From contig DVNI01000029.1 of the NCBI GenBank assembly GCA_018714505.1, forward strand, positions 1 to 38,666: DNA of 38,666 bases, read 5' to 3'. This document shows positions 5,578 through 38,146 of this stretch, piece after piece. Numbering within the stretch: the first letter of the stretch is position 1; every line of letters starts with the position of its first letter. The notes beneath the pieces were generated by a model. The model had not been told where the DNA came from, searched no databases, and was given only the letters and a program-made list of their open reading frames with translations. The DNA comes from Candidatus Avacidaminococcus intestinavium (GTDB taxonomy: Bacteria; Bacillota; Negativicutes; Acidaminococcales; Acidaminococcaceae). The position numbers and the translations under genes were made by a program.

Positions 5578-6057
5578 ATGAAGATATCACTTGTTTGCGT
5601 CGGAAAAATCAAAGAAAAATATTTAACGCAAGGTATTGAAGAATATTTAAAAAGGTTGGGACCTTTCTGTAAGCTAGAAATAATCAGTATTAATGAAGAA
5701 AAAATGCCGGATAATCCTTCACCCGCAGAAAAAACGCAGGTGATTGCTAAAGAAACTAAACGACTACTTGCAGTAATACCTGGAGGAGCGCATGTTGTGG
5801 TGCTTGATGTTATAGGTCAGCCGATTAGTTCGCCAGAACTATCTGATTTATTTGATGAGTTAGCGGTGCGTGGTCAGAGTCATATTGCTTTTGTGATTGG
5901 CGGCGCATTTGGGTTTAGTGATGAATTGCGTAAACGAAGTGACGAACGAATATCTTTTTCCCGGTTGACTTTTACGCATCAAATGATCAGACTGTTAGTA
6001 GTAGAACAGATTTATCGTGCGTTTAAGATTAGTCGTGGTGAAAAATATCATTGGTAA
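5578..6057 (+). CDS. rlmH: 23S rRNA (pseudouridine1915-N3)-methyltransferase RlmH
   Basis: RlmH is a small SPOUT-class methyltransferase that modifies pseudouridine 1915 in helix 69 of 23S rRNA. The 159-aa length is standard. Visible signatures are KISLVCVGKIKEKY at the N terminus, the SAM-binding knot with VIGGAFGFS near 101-109, and the C-terminal tail RGEKYHW (family YH motif). It starts two bases after the htrA stop, with the Shine-Dalgarno inside the htrA end, so the genes are co-translated. It is the last gene of the operon, followed at once by a strong hairpin. Confidence 0.96.
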   Translation: MKISLVCVGKIKEKYLTQGIEEYLKRLGPFCKLEIISINEEKMPDNPSPAEKTQVIAKETKRLLAVIPGGAHVVVLDVIGQPISSPELSDLFDELAVRGQSHIAFVIGGAFGFSDELRKRSDERISFSRLTFTHQMIRLLVVEQIYRAFKISRGEKYHW

Positions 6058-6060
6058 AAA

Positions 6061-6110
6061 AAGAAGCAGGTAAGCGCGTCTATTTAGACGCGCTTACCTG
6101 CTTCTTCTTT
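6061..6110. terminator. Bidirectional terminator between rlmH and the mscS-type gene
   Basis: A perfect inverted repeat with 22-base arms, 6061-6082 and 6085-6106, is separated by two bases. It has a GC-rich centre, TCTTT on the + side and A-rich sequence before it, giving a T-run for the minus strand. It serves both convergent genes. Confidence 0.9.
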
Positions 6111-9225: not shown

Positions 9226-10533
9226 ATGAATAATGTATTAACGAAAGAATTATGTTTAAGCAACATTCAAAATCTAACAGAAAAAATGTTATTAGATTTG
9301 TTAGAAGATGAAAAGTACAGTGTTATTATTACTGATGAGCAGCACTTAAAAGAGGAAAAAGAGGTTTGTTGGCAGCGTCGCAAAGCAACTTTACAAAGAG
9401 TAGTACATAAAACAACAATCAGTATTAGGCACAAGCGTGAAAAAATTAGTGCTCGTTTGGAAATAGGAACGGTGAATGTAGAAGAAAGAGTTTTTTCACA
9501 ATGTGATCTTTATATCAGTTATACAAAAAAGAATATTGAACAAGTAGAAAAGTTTTTAGGCGAAGTTTTAAAAAAGAGTATTTTTGTACTGGTAGAGCCC
9601 AATATTTGGGAAAGAGCGAGTCAATTAGCCGGGTATTATCAGCCGCTTATTTCTTTACGCTATCAGCGGGACGATATTAAAACTGCCCTGGACACACATT
9701 TGTTTTGGCAAATATTTCTTATTAATCAAGGCTGGGTGGATTTTTTGTGTAAACCGTTAGAACGAATAACACTCAGACAATTAAGAGTAAAGCTTAGACG
9801 TCTACGTTCCTGTTTGGCTTTTTTTAAGCCAGTTTTAGAGCAACCTCAAGCCAGCCTGTGGCAAACGGAGTTACGAAGGCAGGGCGAAGAATTGTCATTG
9901 CTTCGTGAATTAGATGTGGCTTTAATGGCGATTGAAAAATTTTCAGCAAATACGACTCAAGAAGAGTTAGCCCAAGAGTATTTAGCTAAAATTCTTAGTC
10001 AGGCTAGAGCAATCGAAGCGAAACGTGTTAAACAAAAAATGCAATTAGCGACCCTAACCTTTACTTTTGCTAGGCTAATTATGTGGTTAAGTGATGAGCC
10101 CTTGACTGCTAGTTGTGAGCGGTATGGCTTGGAAAGTTTTTTTAGGCGTAGAATTAGGGAGTGGAGCAAGAACATTATTTCTTTAACACAGCGGTATCCG
10201 GATTTTTCTGATGTAGAAAAAATGCATAAAATTCGGATTAAAGTTAAAAAATTTCGTTATGTTATGATGAGTTTTCCAGAAATTAATCATAATACGAATA
10301 CAATGTTACGGCGTTTGAAGAAACTACAGGATATGTTAGGTTTCTTACATGATGAATATATTAATAAAGAATTGGCTCAGCGCATTATGCAAGCAGATGG
10401 CAGTAAAACATCGTTAAAGCAAACAGTTTTTTGCGGTTGGGAGAGTGCTAAAACCGCAGAAGCCTTGGCAATTGTGCCAGATTTATGGGAAGATTTTTGT
10501 GAAGACTTAGAATTATGGCGAGATACAATCTAA
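9226..10533 (+). CDS. CHAD domain protein with divergent N-terminal region
   Basis: The protein is 435 aa. From about residue 150 it is a CHAD domain: a helical region with LRQLRVKLRRLRSCLAFF (183-200), the LRELDVAL segment, then M333-H334-K-I-R-I-K-V-K-K-F-R-Y and LGFLHDEY. Family knowledge: CHAD binds inorganic polyphosphate through basic side chains and often follows a CYTH triphosphatase domain. In the first CHAD helix the usual His-x-x-Arg begins with Leu/Arg in place of His; the second His (H334) is kept. The N-terminal 150 residues are rich in charged residues and could be a degenerate CYTH, but no clear ExExK signature is present. The Shine-Dalgarno is weak, so translation may depend on the upstream gene. 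Confidence 0.85.
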   Translation: MNNVLTKELCLSNIQNLTEKMLLDLLEDEKYSVIITDEQHLKEEKEVCWQRRKATLQRVVHKTTISIRHKREKISARLEIGTVNVEERVFSQCDLYISYTKKNIEQVEKFLGEVLKKSIFVLVEPNIWERASQLAGYYQPLISLRYQRDDIKTALDTHLFWQIFLINQGWVDFLCKPLERITLRQLRVKLRRLRSCLAFFKPVLEQPQASLWQTELRRQGEELSLLRELDVALMAIEKFSANTTQEELAQEYLAKILSQARAIEAKRVKQKMQLATLTFTFARLIMWLSDEPLTASCERYGLESFFRRRIREWSKNIISLTQRYPDFSDVEKMHKIRIKVKKFRYVMMSFPEINHNTNTMLRRLKKLQDMLGFLHDEYINKELAQRIMQADGSKTSLKQTVFCGWESAKTAEALAIVPDLWEDFCEDLELWRDTI

Positions 10534-10573
10534 AAAACTCCTCATGCTAACTAGTTAGCATGAGGAGTTTTTT
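10532..10573. terminator. Perfect palindromic bidirectional terminator
   Basis: A 42-base perfect palindrome has arms 10532-10552 and 10553-10573, six A at the left and six T at the right, and ACTCCTCATGC as core stem. It lies between the convergent CHAD gene and the GltD-like gene and works in both directions. Its first two bases lie in the CHAD stop codon. Confidence 0.92.
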
Positions 10574-30023: not shown

Positions 30024-31985
30024 GTGGGTAAGTTTTTTAGAAATGTCAGCTTTTACTTATTTATTATTATTATAGCTATATGGATGCTCGAACAATATTC
30101 TGCTAATACTATTAGCAAAACAGACATTACATATAGTAATTTTATGAGACAAGTACAACAAAATGAAGTTGAAAATGTAACCGTGGTTGATAATATAATT
30201 TCAGGAAAGCTAAAGTCAGGTGCTGATTTTAGTACGATTGCTCCTAACGATCCTGAATTAATCAATACTTTGCGCAGTCATAATGTGGAGATTAGCGCAG
30301 AATTACCGCCTCAGCCTCCCTGGTGGATGACGATTATTACGTCCATGCTACCAATGCTTTTAATTATTGGAATCTGGTTCCTTTTAATGCAGCAAAGCCA
30401 AGGTGGCGGCGGACGCGTTATGTCTTTCGGTAAAAGTAAGGCAAAAATGTATGGTGACGAAAAAGTTAAAATTACGTTTAAAGATGTAGCAGGAGCAGAT
30501 GAAGCAAAGCAGGAACTATCGGAGGTTGTAGAGTTTTTAAAGAAACCTAAAAAGTTTAATGAATTAGGTGCTCGTATTCCTAAGGGCGTTTTACTTTTTG
30601 GACCTCCTGGAACAGGTAAAACGTTACTGGCTAAAGCCGTAGCTGGAGAAGCTGGTGTGCCTTTCTTTAGTATCAGTGGTTCTGATTTTGTTGAGATGTT
30701 CGTAGGTGTTGGTGCTTCACGTGTACGTGATTTATTTGAACAGGCGAAGAAAAATGCGCCTTGTATCATTTTTATTGATGAGATTGATGCTGTTGGGCGT
30801 CAAAGGGGTGCCGGCTTAGGTGGCGGACATGACGAACGTGAACAAACCTTAAATCAGTTATTGGTTGAAATGGACGGTTTTGGTGCTAATGAAGGCATTA
30901 TTATGATTGCAGCTACCAATAGGCCGGATATTCTTGACCCAGCTTTACTAAGACCGGGGCGTTTTGATCGTCAGATTGTCGTAGATCGTCCTGATATTAA
31001 AGGGCGTCAAGAGATTTTGAAAGTGCACGTAAAAGGTAAACCAATCGCTAGTGATATTGATTTAGAAGTCGTGGCGAGAAGGACACCGGGCTTTACTGGT
31101 GCAGATCTTAGTAATTTGGTGAATGAAGCAGCGTTGTTATCAGCGCGCCGCAATAAAAAAACCATTAATATGTCAGAAATGGAAGAAGCAGCTGAGCGCG
31201 TAATGATGGGACCAGAACGCAGAAGTCGTGTGATTAGCGATAATGAAAAAAGATTGACGGCTTACCATGAGGGTGGACATACTTTAGTGGGCATGCTTTT
31301 AGATCATACAGATCCTGTTCATAAGGTAACGATTATTCCGAGAGGTAGAGCTGGCGGTTATACCCTGAGCTTACCAAAAGAAGATCGCTATTATGCAACA
31401 AAAAGCGAACTTTTAGATGAGTTAAAATTACTTTTGGGTGGACGTGTTGCTGAAGCGTTGGTCTTAAAAGAAATATCCAGCGGTGCTAGTAATGACTTGC
31501 AGCGAGTAACGGCTTTAGCACGTCAGATGATTTGCGAATTTGGGATGAGTGAAAGTTTGGGAACTATGACTTTTGGACACAGACAAGATCAAGTTTTTTT
31601 GGGACGTGATATTGCTAAAGACAAAGATTATAGTGAAGAAGTTGCAGCTCAAATCGATAAAGAAATTCGTAGATTTATTGATGAAGCGTACAAAGAAACT
31701 GAGAAATTATTAAGTGAAAATATTGATAAACTACATTTAATTGCTGATGCTTTAATGGAGCGAGAGACGCTTGAAGGTTATGAAGTAAAACAATTAATGG
31801 AGCAGGGTAAAATTTTGCCAAAAGAAGAGAATAAACAAGATCCGCTGCAACCAGCCCCACTTCCGGTAGATGAAGAGCAAGCGGTAAATCCGGCTAGTGA
31901 GGTAAAAACAGCTAAAGAAGTATTGCAGCCGGCTCCGGAAAATGCGCAGGGTGATTTAGCGCATCCGATTAAACAACAAGAATAA
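30024..31985 (+). CDS. ftsH: ATP-dependent zinc metalloprotease FtsH
   Basis: A membrane AAA+ protease of 653 aa. Two transmembrane helices (about 7-23 and 107-124) flank a small extracytoplasmic domain. The AAA module has Walker A G193-P-P-G-T-G-K-T200, Walker [14 protein letters not shown], the pore motif [11 protein letters not shown], and the second region of homology [20 protein letters not shown]. The zinc site is H415-E-G-G-H419 (usual form HEAGH) with third ligand D491. The C-terminal tail from about 605 is Pro/Ala/Glu-rich, with LQPAP occurring twice. GTG start with AAAGGAGG upstream. It degrades misassembled membrane and regulatory proteins. A terminator follows. Confidence 0.98.
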
Positions 31986-31992
31986 ATGTTTC

Positions 31993-32028
31993 AAAATCCC
32001 CACTATTTTAGATAGTGGGGATTTTTTT
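31993..32028 (+). terminator. Terminator of ftsH
   Basis: Stem ATCCCCACTAT (31996-32006) and ATAGTGGGGAT (32012-32022), extended by AAA/TTT, followed by T at 32022-32028. Confidence 0.94.
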
Positions 32029-34500: not shown

Positions 34501-34517
34501 TTAAGATGAGGTGGAAA

Positions 34518-35492
34518 ATGTTTTTAGGTAAACTTGAAGTAAAAATACCAGTTGTGTTGGCACCGATGGCGGGAATAACGGATTTGCCTTTTCGTTTACT
34601 ATGCCGCGAACTGGGGAGTGGTTTTACAATATCAGAAATGGTGAGTGCCAAAGGGCTTTTGCATAAGAATGACAAGACGTTTGCGATGCTACGGATAGAA
34701 GAGAAGGAACGGCCTACAGCTATCCAGCTATTTGGTTCAGATCCAAGGGAATTAGCTGAAGCGGCAGCAATTGTAGAAAAAAATGGCGCAGATATAGTTG
34801 ATTTTAATATGGGTTGTCCTGTACCAAAGATTGTTAATAATGGCGAGGGCTCAGCCTTGATGAAGAATCCTGAACTTGCTTATGAAATTTTGGCAAGAAT
34901 GGTTGATGCGGTGCAAATCCCCGTAACCGTCAAGTTTCGTTCGGGTTGGAACGAAAAAACTATGAATGCTGAAGAGATTGCACGCAAGGCCGAACTTGCT
35001 GGCGTTAGTGCCGTAGCTGTGCATGCTAGAACACGAGAACAACATTATAGTGGAACTGCTGATTGGCAGGTAATTAGGGCAGTGAAGGAAGTTGTAAAAA
35101 TACCTGTTTTTGGTAATGGTGATATAAAAAGTTTAGCAGATGGTAAGCGAATGATTGAAGAAACTAATTGCGATGGACTTATGCTTGGGCGTGGCGTTGA
35201 TGGTAATCCATGGTTGTTTCGTGACTTTGCAGCTTATTTTAAAGGAGAACCACAACCAGAACCAGTAGCATTAGAAGAACGCTTTGCCTTTATTATCAGA
35301 CATTTTTCCTTGTTAATCGCACATAAAGGGGAAGTTGTTGCTACTAAGGAAATGCGAAGACATCTGACTGCATACAGTAAAGGTTTGCCTTATGCCGCAG
35401 AATATCGCGGTAAATTTAATGCAATTACGGATTTTGAGCAAGCAAAAAAAATATTAGATGAATATTTGCAGAAACTTATTGCTGAAAGATAA
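34518..35492 (+). CDS. dusB: tRNA-dihydrouridine synthase DusB
   Basis: An FMN enzyme that reduces uridines in the tRNA D-loop. The 324-aa TIM barrel has VVLAPMAGITDLPFR at the start, the catalytic C100 in MGCPVPKIV, TVKFRSGW (FMN-binding Lys), HARTREQHYSG, GNGDI and LGRGVDGNPWLF; these fit the DusB group. ATG 34518 is supported by GAGGTGG seven bases before it; ATG 34506 overlaps that box. The gene stands alone between the coaX hairpin and the palindrome before the HTH gene. Confidence 0.95.
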   Translation: MFLGKLEVKIPVVLAPMAGITDLPFRLLCRELGSGFTISEMVSAKGLLHKNDKTFAMLRIEEKERPTAIQLFGSDPRELAEAAAIVEKNGADIVDFNMGCPVPKIVNNGEGSALMKNPELAYEILARMVDAVQIPVTVKFRSGWNEKTMNAEEIARKAELAGVSAVAVHARTREQHYSGTADWQVIRAVKEVVKIPVFGNGDIKSLADGKRMIEETNCDGLMLGRGVDGNPWLFRDFAAYFKGEPQPEPVALEERFAFIIRHFSLLIAHKGEVVATKEMRRHLTAYSKGLPYAAEYRGKFNAITDFEQAKKILDEYLQKLIAER

Positions 35493-35504: not shown

Positions 35505-35534
35505 TTGAGCAATTCAGATAATTCATGTTAAAAT
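35505..35534 (+). promoter_or_regulatory. Extended -10 promoter of the three-gene cassette
   Basis: TTGAGC at 35505-35510 and TAAAAT at 35529-35534 are 18 bases apart, with TG at 35526-35527 forming an extended -10. The -10 overlaps the left edge of the 35-base palindrome. Confidence 0.5.
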
Positions 35535-35564
35535 AGGTGTGTACAATTTGTACACACCTATTTT
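35530..35564. promoter_or_regulatory. Perfect 35-bp palindrome, likely operator of the cassette
   Basis: Two perfect 17-base arms (35530-35546 and 35548-35564) flank one central T. The core reads TGTACA-ATT-TGTACA within GTGTGTACAA/TTGTACACAC. It covers the -10 edge and the expected transcription start and ends five bases before the Shine-Dalgarno of the HTH regulator, which fits an autoregulatory operator or a leader hairpin. It resembles a bidirectional terminator, but there is no room for a promoter between it and the gene. Confidence 0.7.
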
Positions 35565-35582
35565 GTATTAAGGAGAATGTTT

Positions 35583-36119
35583 ATGGATCCAATAAGAATC
35601 GGTGAGAAAATTATCAATAGAAGCCGTATCCATTATTTGGTGGATGAGATTGTTGATCTAAGAATGCAAGGCTTTTCACAACAAGAAGTAGCGAAAATTC
35701 ATGCAATTGATAGAACCTTTATCTCAAGACTAGAAAGTTTAGGTGAAATTCGTAAGGGTGGGCGAGTAGCGTTAGTTGCTTTTCCCGTTAGTAATAGAAA
35801 AGAGATAGTGGCGTTAGCTGAGCAAGTTGGTATTGAATATGTTGTGATTTTTTCAGAAGAAGAACGCTGGGCTTTTTTGCGTGATAAAAATGGTGTAGAA
35901 CTTTTTAATGCAGTAATGAAGATTGTTGGCAGATTACGAGAAAGTGATGTTGTAATCGTGGCTGCTTCTAATATGAGGATTAATCTCGCTAAAACTTTAC
36001 TGGATAAACAAGTCGTTGGTCTTGTGCTAGGAGAATCACCGATTGAAGAAGATAAATATTTAGAGCCACAGCTTGTTCAAGAGATCATGGAAAGTTTAAA
36101 GAAGGTGTCGAGCATTTGA
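35583..36119 (+). CDS. Small HTH transcriptional regulator of the cassette
   Basis: A 178-aa two-part protein. Residues about 15-60 hold a helix-turn-helix: LRMQGFSQQEVAKIHAIDRT then FISRLESLG, with the sparing Gln-Gln and the Arg/Ser recognition residues typical of DNA readers. The rest, from GRVALVAFPV, alternates strands and helices (YVVIFSEEERWAF, SDVVIVAASNMR, VVGLVLGES) like a small Rossmann-type sensor domain. I cannot place it in a named regulator family. ATG 35583 is chosen because AAGGAG is seven bases before it and only one base before ATG 35577. Its stop overlaps the next gene's TTG. The palindrome upstream suggests self-regulation. Confidence 0.8.
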   Translation: MDPIRIGEKIINRSRIHYLVDEIVDLRMQGFSQQEVAKIHAIDRTFISRLESLGEIRKGGRVALVAFPVSNRKEIVALAEQVGIEYVVIFSEEERWAFLRDKNGVELFNAVMKIVGRLRESDVVIVAASNMRINLAKTLLDKQVVGLVLGESPIEEDKYLEPQLVQEIMESLKKVSSI

Positions 36120-37015
36120 AACAAGTAGTGAGTATTAGTCTGGGGTCTAGTGAGAGAGATTCTGTTGTCTACGAAAACTTTGCTGGAGAAAGAGTCCGCA
36201 TTGAAAGGCGTGGCACTGATGGTGATAAAGCAAAAGCCAAAGCACTTTTATTAGAACATGACGGTGCAGTAGATGCCCTAGGACTAGGGGGCACAGATTT
36301 ATATATTTTTGCTGGAGGCAGAAGATATACTTTTGCTGAGTCGGCGCGATTGATTAAAAACCTTCAGCAGACACCGGTATTAGATGGCAGTGGACTTAAA
36401 AATACTTTGGAACGCTATGTAATTGAAGAAATAGATCGTCTAAAAATAATTGACTTTAAGGATAAAAAAGTATTGTTAGTTTGCGGTGTAGATCGTTTTG
36501 GTTTGGGAGAAGCTTTAAGTGCAGCAGGAGCCGAGGTTACTTTTGGTGATCTTCTCTACGGGCTTGGCGTTCCCTTGCCTATTAGATCACTCGCGCAATT
36601 AAGTACTCTAGCTAAAATTGTGGCACCAGTAGTTACCAAAATGCCTGTTAGCTGGTTTTATCCGGTGGGGCAGGCGCAAACCAAGAAGCAAGTTCTTTAT
36701 CCGGAATATTTTTATGATAGTGATATTATTGTTGGTGACTTTCATTTTATAAAGAAATTTATGCCCAAAACTTTACCAGATAAAATTATTATTACAAATA
36801 CGGTAACACAAAAAGATCGCGAGCTGTTAAAGGCTGCTGGAATAAAGCTTTTAATCACGACGACACCTAATTTTAAAGGGCGTAGTTTTGGGACTAATGT
36901 TTTAGAAGCAGTTTTAGTTGCCTTACAAGGCCAAAAACACGCTTTAAATGAAAATGAATATCGTGCAGCAATAAAAAAATATGGTATTGAGCCAGCTTTA
37001 GACTATTTGGCTTAA
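36116..37015 (+). CDS. Conserved protein usually annotated 'quinate 5-dehydrogenase'
   Basis: The 299-aa protein starts at TTG 36116, overlapping the regulator stop by four bases, with AAGGTG eight bases upstream. I recall similar proteins named quinate 5-dehydrogenase in Firmicutes genomes, but no quinate/shikimate dehydrogenase catalytic Lys-Asp motif or GxGxxG loop is visible. What is seen: an N-terminal region with LGLGGTDLYIFAGGRRY and LDGSGLKNTLERYVI, a Rossmann-like strand-turn-helix KKVLLVCGVDRFGLGEAL (about 120-137), and a C-terminal half with DIIVGDFHFIKKFMP and IKLLITTTPNFKGRSFGTN. It is soluble, without Cys clusters (Cys only near 124). The function is unknown; placement suggests it acts with the reductase that follows. 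Confidence 0.7.
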   Translation: MKQVVSISLGSSERDSVVYENFAGERVRIERRGTDGDKAKAKALLLEHDGAVDALGLGGTDLYIFAGGRRYTFAESARLIKNLQQTPVLDGSGLKNTLERYVIEEIDRLKIIDFKDKKVLLVCGVDRFGLGEALSAAGAEVTFGDLLYGLGVPLPIRSLAQLSTLAKIVAPVVTKMPVSWFYPVGQAQTKKQVLYPEYFYDSDIIVGDFHFIKKFMPKTLPDKIIITNTVTQKDRELLKAAGIKLLITTTPNFKGRSFGTNVLEAVLVALQGQKHALNENEYRAAIKKYGIEPALDYLA

Positions 37016-37029
37016 AAGGAGTTATGTTG

Positions 37030-38121
37030 ATGGAAAAATTCGCATTTGTTCTGCATCCTTTAGTAGTGGCGGATTTTGCCCGCAAATTTCCAATTCTGAA
37101 TTATGTGCCAGACCATTGGATTGAAAGTGCAATGAAAAGGGTAAAGGCTTTTAAGATATCGCATATTACAGGGGTGCATTCCCCATATGCTGAGGCAGAA
37201 GGATGGTTTATTGCTTGTCCGCTTACGGCAAAGCAAATGGTTAATTTACCAGAAGAATTTGTTTTGGATAAAATTACAGAAGCTTGTCAATTGGCTGAGT
37301 CGTTAGGTGCTAAGATTGTCGGCCTTGGAGCTTTTTCTTCGATTGTCGGTGATGCTGGTATTACAGTAGCTAAAAGAGTTAACATAGCAGTTACTAGTGG
37401 TAATAGTTATACGGTAGCGACGGCACTGGAAGGAACACGTCAAGCAGTAAGAATGATGGGGAAAGATTTAGCTAATGCTAATGTTGCGATTATTGGAGCC
37501 ACTGGATCAATTGGTGCGGCTTGCGCCAAGATTCTTACCCAAGAAGCAAAGCATATTACGTTAGTTGCTAGGGCGGAAAGTCGATTGGAAAGTTTGGCGC
37601 AGGAACTTTTTCTGGCTCAAAAAGCGACAATCACGATTACGTCCTCGTTACAAGAAGCTCTGCATGATGCCGATGTAGTATTAACGGTTACTAGTGCATT
37701 AGAAACGCTCATTGATCCCAAAGATTTAAAAAGCGGAGCTGTTGTTTGTGATGTAGCAAGGCCACGCAATGTATCCAAAGAAGTTTCACGCTTGCGTAAA
37801 GACGTGCTCGTAATTGAAGGTGGAGTTATTAACGTACCGGGTAGTGTTGATTTTGGCTTTAACTTCGGTTTTCCACCAAGAACGTCTTATGCTTGTATGG
37901 CTGAAACTATGATTTTAGCATTGGAAGGTCGTTATGAAAATTATACTTTGGGTAGACAATTATCGGTTGAACAAATCGTTAATATTAATAAATTAGCCGA
38001 GAAACATGAGTTTAGTTTAGCGGGCTTTCGTAATTTTGAAAAAGAGGTAACTAAGAAGGAAATTGAAGAGATACAGCACTTGGCAGGATGTCATTCTTTG
38101 CCGATAATGCCGAGAGGTTGA
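37030..38121 (+). CDS. Acyl-ACP reductase-like / shikimate dehydrogenase-like NAD(P) enzyme
   Basis: A 363-aa protein. From memory it follows cyanobacterial long-chain acyl-ACP reductase (AAR) nearly block for block: GLGAFSSIV (AAR ALGGFTSII), TSGNSYTVA (TTGNTHTAY), the NADPH loop G156-A-T-G-S-I-G162, LIDPKDLKSGAVVCD, VIEGGVINVPG, and C289 in YACMAETMILALEG, aligned with the AAR acyl-thioester cysteine (ACFAEAMLLEFEG). The tail YTLGRQLSVEQI matches FSWGRNQITIEK. AAR reduces acyl-ACP to fatty aldehyde. Databases often name such proteins shikimate dehydrogenase, but that enzyme is only about 270 aa. ATG 37030 has AAGGAG eight bases before it. Its stop lies within the greA -35. Confidence 0.8.
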   Translation: MEKFAFVLHPLVVADFARKFPILNYVPDHWIESAMKRVKAFKISHITGVHSPYAEAEGWFIACPLTAKQMVNLPEEFVLDKITEACQLAESLGAKIVGLGAFSSIVGDAGITVAKRVNIAVTSGNSYTVATALEGTRQAVRMMGKDLANANVAIIGATGSIGAACAKILTQEAKHITLVARAESRLESLAQELFLAQKATITITSSLQEALHDADVVLTVTSALETLIDPKDLKSGAVVCDVARPRNVSKEVSRLRKDVLVIEGGVINVPGSVDFGFNFGFPPRTSYACMAETMILALEGRYENYTLGRQLSVEQIVNINKLAEKHEFSLAGFRNFEKEVTKKEIEEIQHLAGCHSLPIMPRG

Positions 38122-38146
38122 CAACCTGCGTTCGAAAAATTATAAT
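38118..38146 (+). promoter_or_regulatory. Consensus sigma-A promoter of greA
   Basis: TTGACA at 38118-38123 and TATAAT at 38141-38146, spacer 17: a perfect promoter. The -35 contains the stop codon of the reductase-like gene (38119-38121). Confidence 0.88.

Follow-up and report, generated by a model that had tools for sequence, protein, structure and literature searches.

A conserved inverted repeat at the promoter of an HTH regulator gene, probably an autoregulatory operator, within a lineage-specific 35 bp palindrome

The perfect 35 bp palindrome (35530–35564; 17 + 1 + 17) between dusB and the gene for a 178 aa HTH regulator very probably serves this regulator as the binding site for control of its own three-gene operon. 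Its 35 bp length is, on the sequence comparisons, a lineage-specific addition to a shorter conserved core. It is fairly probable that the whole element combines an operator for a dimeric regulator with a lineage-specific extension acting as a terminator or insulator for dusB, and operator versus terminator is probably a false choice. The window analysed is the whole 38,666 nt stretch of contig DVNI01000029.1 (Candidatus Avacidaminococcus intestinavium), in which the relevant features are as follows.

34506–35492, + strand: dusB, encoding tRNA dihydrouridine synthase and lying upstream (401 bits to TIGR00737, above cut-off); its read-through RNA would carry the full hairpin
35505–35534, + strand: predicted operon promoter (consensus scan), with −35 TTGAGC (35505–35510), an 18 nt spacer, TG, and −10 TAAAAT (35529–35534)
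35530–35564, no strand: perfect 35 bp palindrome, made up of the candidate operator core and outer arms specific to the lineage; its RNA would form a 17 bp hairpin followed by UUUUGUAUU
35538–35545, + strand: left candidate operator half-site, TGTGTACA (core conserved in 75 of 79 named loci and in all 34 further Negativicutes)
35549–35556, − strand: right candidate operator half-site, TGTACACA on the + strand and TGTGTACA on the − strand, on the same basis; 3 bp gap at 35546–35548
35570–35575, + strand: AAGGAG, the Shine-Dalgarno of the regulator gene, which the hairpin does not include (from the sequence)
35583–36119, + strand: regulator, 178 aa, with a beta-hairpin, an HTH (residues 13–54) and a Rossmann-like C-terminal domain (AlphaFold2, pLDDT 91)
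36116–37015, + strand: gene 2, 299 aa Rossmann-type protein belonging to no family, nearly always linked to the regulator (linkage; model resemblance)
37030–38121, + strand: gene 3, 363 aa, acyl-ACP reductase/PigE-like (TIGR04058, 124 bits, below cut-off; Shikimate_DH fold)

The two arms (35530–35546 and 35548–35564) are 17 nt each and 100% complementary around a single central T, as the initial annotation had described them, and the TGTACA cores at 35540–35545 and 35549–35554 measure the 15 bases end to end that it gave. The palindrome coincides with the extended −10 promoter (TGtTAAAAT), predicted start included, and ends five bases before AAGGAG, again as annotated. The start codon of the regulator is likely the ATG at 35583; an upstream ATG at 35577 is less likely. 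The palindrome had also been called longer and more exact than usual operators. Perfect arms in 20 dinucleotide shuffles of the window reached at most 8–11 nt, but long palindromes are not rare here. Three others occur (6057–6110, 10532–10573 and 31993–32025), two with longer arms and one with arms of 14–15 nt; they sit between convergent genes or just 3′ of the 30024–31985 ORF (FtsH by sequence) and look like ordinary terminators. As comparable or longer palindromes of this kind share the window, length alone is not special; what is unusual about the one at 35530–35564 is that it coincides with a promoter and has a phylogenetically conserved core. A promoter scan found no divergent promoter on the minus strand inside the palindrome. 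Elsewhere, a 12-of-12 sigma-70 consensus (TTGACA, 17, TATAAT) at 38118–38146 lies across the stop of gene 3, immediately ahead of greA.

The regulator matched no family in Pfam or NCBIfam. It is linked to gene 2 in almost all of 80 named loci, often with dusB nearby, and the model of gene 2 resembles the acyl-ACP reductase AAR (6jzq; TM about 0.5). Many relatives (L036–L058, L063, L065, L068, L091, L092 and L100) carry an extra gene ending in ...RFPFDPWG or similar between dusB and the regulator, the stop region of which often overlaps a terminator-like hairpin. Weak matches at profile positions 14–58 were also seen; in many genomes several of these lie in open frames of about 265 aa, which, judged by size, may encode ParB/Noc-type proteins with a similar HTH.

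The core in the window reads TGTGTACA-ATT-TGTACACA, and its usual form elsewhere is TGTGCACA-n3/4-TGTGCACA. An inverted repeat like this was recognised by eye near the −10 in all 24 regulator-bearing genomes of a first search, that of the window included. The main set comprised the window and 80 named loci, drawn from Negativicutes, Clostridia and Atribacteria; 79 of these had enough upstream sequence. A core score of at least 11 was reached in 75 of these 79, against 4 of 790 shuffles and none of 79 inside-gene stretches, and a score of at least 12 in 73/79 against 0/790 shuffles. A further 34 Negativicutes, overlapping in organisms with the named loci, all carried the core. A few half-sites are one base off, such as TGTGCGCA in L018. 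The initial annotation had taken absence of the palindrome before orthologues as refuting its reading; instead, the core precedes nearly every one. The conserved unit is the pair of TGTGCACA half-sites with a gap of 3–4 bp, about 20 bp in total and not the whole 35 bp, and operators outside the order to which the window belongs are shorter and mostly imperfect. In most orthologues the core adjoins the −10 box; most also retain a −10 of the TGnTAAAAT type at this place. Because this position beside the −10 is retained even in Pelosinus, where the core lies at the promoter roughly 90–115 nt before the gene, the core appears to be tied to the start of transcription and not to that of translation. 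The half-sites stand 3 bp apart in the window and L031–L035 but 4 bp apart in almost every other locus, and a one-base difference of this kind is odd in a site for a dimer. Outside the order (L036–L058 and L126–L159), the core is followed directly on its right by TATACTA or TATAATA, a conserved sequence without symmetry.

Per genome, the core is nearly a single-site motif. When eight genomes were scanned, five regulator-bearing relatives (2.4–5.4 Mb) had one match apiece and a sixth had two; the only match in G020, with two mismatches, lies elsewhere than its operator, and the genome of the window had none, since the 3 bp gap of both these operators fell outside the pattern. When the window's genome was searched with a 3 bp gap, no convincing second site was found, and a regulon there was set aside as only one convincing site is present. 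The co-variation of arm bases with HTH residues, proposed in the initial annotation, was examined and proved weakly informative, the recognition helix being almost invariant; only the Atribacteria variant differs, which is one clade. In the four Atribacteria concerned (L080, L096, L102 and L108) the regulators have TQ and ER replacing SQ and DR around the HTH, and TGTATACA stands in both halves of three of the four operators and in one half of that of L102. Both halves read TGTATACA only in Atribacteria with this replacement, possibly a specificity switch, seen in the one clade.

Relatives lacking the regulator serve as natural deletions. Within the order of the window, 41 genomes have gene 2 and only seven of them the regulator. 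The palindrome is present in all seven, and the core in none of the 34 regulator-less genomes (26 + 8), all of which keep gene 2. It was likewise missing from six regulator-less Negativicutes elsewhere, giving 0/40 genomes with gene 2 and without the regulator, which are not independent cases and reflect few independent losses (three well supported). Mapped on the gene 2 tree, regulator presence takes six changes, of which well supported branches force three; the core is concordant in all six. The regulator-bearing clade of the window is nested among regulator-less relatives, so repeated loss of the regulator, or loss and regain, is possible. In many of the regulator-less members of the order, a promoter of the TGnTAAAAT type still separates dusB from gene 2. 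An obvious terminator at this junction is missing from most regulator-less relatives. Two from other families of Negativicutes (L221 and L222) have a plain AAAATA...TATTTT hairpin there, of 13–15 bp and followed by further T, with ends much like those of the window palindrome and without the TGTGCACA core.

Core conservation and joint absence strongly support an autoregulatory operator, a reading that is very probable. The dimeric-regulator operator of the initial annotation thus gains from both results, while its extent shrinks from 35 bp to the roughly 20 bp unit. A regulator dimer would most likely read the half-sites at 35538–35545 and 35549–35556. Since these lie just past the −10 box and across the start, a bound regulator would be expected to block initiation, and control is quite likely to be by repression.

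The outer arms behave differently from the core. Symmetry reaches 7–9 bp beyond the 8 bp half-sites only in the seven regulator-bearing genomes of the order and one MAG outside it; among 68 other loci, only L047 extends the symmetry by more than 5 bp. In all seven members of the order the extension engulfs the −10 box and ends in a T-run. The spacers between −10 and core (AGG, AAAG, GAAG, ATGG twice, ATAG and AAAGC) come in six different forms in the seven genomes and are matched every time by an exact complement on the right, so that pairing is kept while the sequence varies. These pairs were counted by script, as the MAFFT alignment misplaces the window arms, which are one base shorter on both sides than those of the other members of the order. 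Three of the −10 boxes read TAGAAT, which would give G.U pairs in RNA.

Read-through RNA from dusB would fold into a hairpin of −22.1 kcal/mol in the window (z −6.3) and of −22 to −27 kcal/mol across the seven genomes (z −6 to −9). RNA from the predicted start (about 35541) begins inside the left arm and, by computation, does not form it. The T-run is short (TTTTG in the window, TTTG in L086), giving four U followed by GUAUU in the window RNA and three to six U in relatives; a terminator scan did not list the palindrome, and a laxer script picked it up. The hairpins of L221 and L222 show that terminator-like structures do occur at the dusB/gene 2 junction, and on this basis the outer arms are read as a dusB terminator or insulator that grew around an older operator. 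In this order the arms would have expanded to take in the −10 box and the T-run, so that dusB read-through RNA would fold into the 17 bp hairpin and be terminated or insulated, whereas transcripts initiated at the operon's own promoter would lack the left arm and escape it. Termination itself is somewhat likely. The initial annotation had treated a terminator as the alternative to an operator, one that would leave the cassette promoterless; that opposition probably falls away, because RNA from the operon's own promoter would start inside the left arm and only dusB RNA has both arms, which leaves room for both functions. The idea that arms are extended strictly where dusB lacks another terminator was rejected: it fits the home order and fails outside it, in Pelosinus (dusB upstream, arms not extended) and in L047 (arms extended without a T-run). 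It is rather unlikely that the layers also interact, with −10 box, operator and terminator coupled such that bound regulator alters dusB termination, for example as a roadblock; if they do, one protein would set both the promoter activity and the insulation of its own operon.

The regulator might instead read all 35 bp, with the outer sequence drifting symmetrically together with the protein in each lineage and with no terminator involved. The confinement of extended arms in the order to genomes with the regulator, and the L047 arms without a T-run, are consistent with this. It is nevertheless unlikely, since the helix is nearly invariant and yet the outer arms differ within one genus (ATGG in L033, ATAG in L035), most orthologues manage without any extension, and in three genomes a G faces a T, which breaks the symmetry of the DNA and keeps the pairing of the RNA. 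Complementary changes would likewise be produced by template-switch correction of an imperfect inverted repeat, perfecting outer arms that have no function around an operator core, and mutations of this type have been described in E. coli (PMC7202029). Such passive perfection is quite improbable here: the extension and the right-hand T-run are kept in all seven members of the order, the G.T positions were left uncorrected, and the same core did not become perfect in other lineages.

A dusB terminator with no operator at all would account for the hairpin and T-run, the AAAA/TTTT ends, the terminator-like appearance of the other long palindromes and the similar hairpins at the same place in L221 and L222; it is very improbable given a core whose sequence is maintained from Bacillota to Atribacteria, mostly with no T-run, and which is gone where the regulator is gone. 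A hairpin in the leader of the regulator mRNA that controls its translation is suggested by the five-base distance to the Shine-Dalgarno and is scarcely tenable, as it cannot be formed by RNA beginning at the predicted start, the Pelosinus core stays at the promoter far from the gene, and an Rfam search of the window gave no match to a known RNA leader element.

The regulator is an undescribed one, its family being in no library searched and spread over Bacillota and Atribacteria. Open-access literature pairing TGTGCACA with 'operator' held, judged by titles, nothing on this regulator, and no description of an operator–terminator combination of this kind was found there. Pairing the family with a specific, nearly single-site candidate operator makes its first function testable, and with it that of the acyl-ACP-reductase-like partner proteins. 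Two further suggestions follow from the case: an 'operator' that is perfect and over-long may consist of a short conserved core to which one lineage has added a hairpin, and the −10 box of a promoter may lie within the 5′ arm of a terminator and still escape silencing by it.

Some small HTH repressors control themselves through operators over the −10/+1 region, as at LexA- or Rex-type sites. The element resembles these in its two-fold symmetric half-sites by the −10, before the regulator's own operon and conserved together with it. It differs in its motif, in a regulator without a Pfam or NCBIfam family and in being nearly single-site. The regulator itself shares with XRE-type proteins only weak HTH sequence matches (3vk0, E 5e-4), from which its Rossmann-like C-terminal domain sets it apart; a fold search with its model gave no solved structure at E below 1e-3 and no reliable relative. 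Intrinsic terminators of the A-tract/stem/U-tract kind are often bidirectional, and the palindrome is like them in its long AT-ended stem, T-run, strong computed hairpin and position directly 3′ of dusB, while its T-run is short, its G+C lower, its 5′ arm occupied by a −10 and its stem by an operator core. Unlike LexA- or Rex-type operators, the symmetry in the lineage of the window continues through the −10 box into a hairpin.
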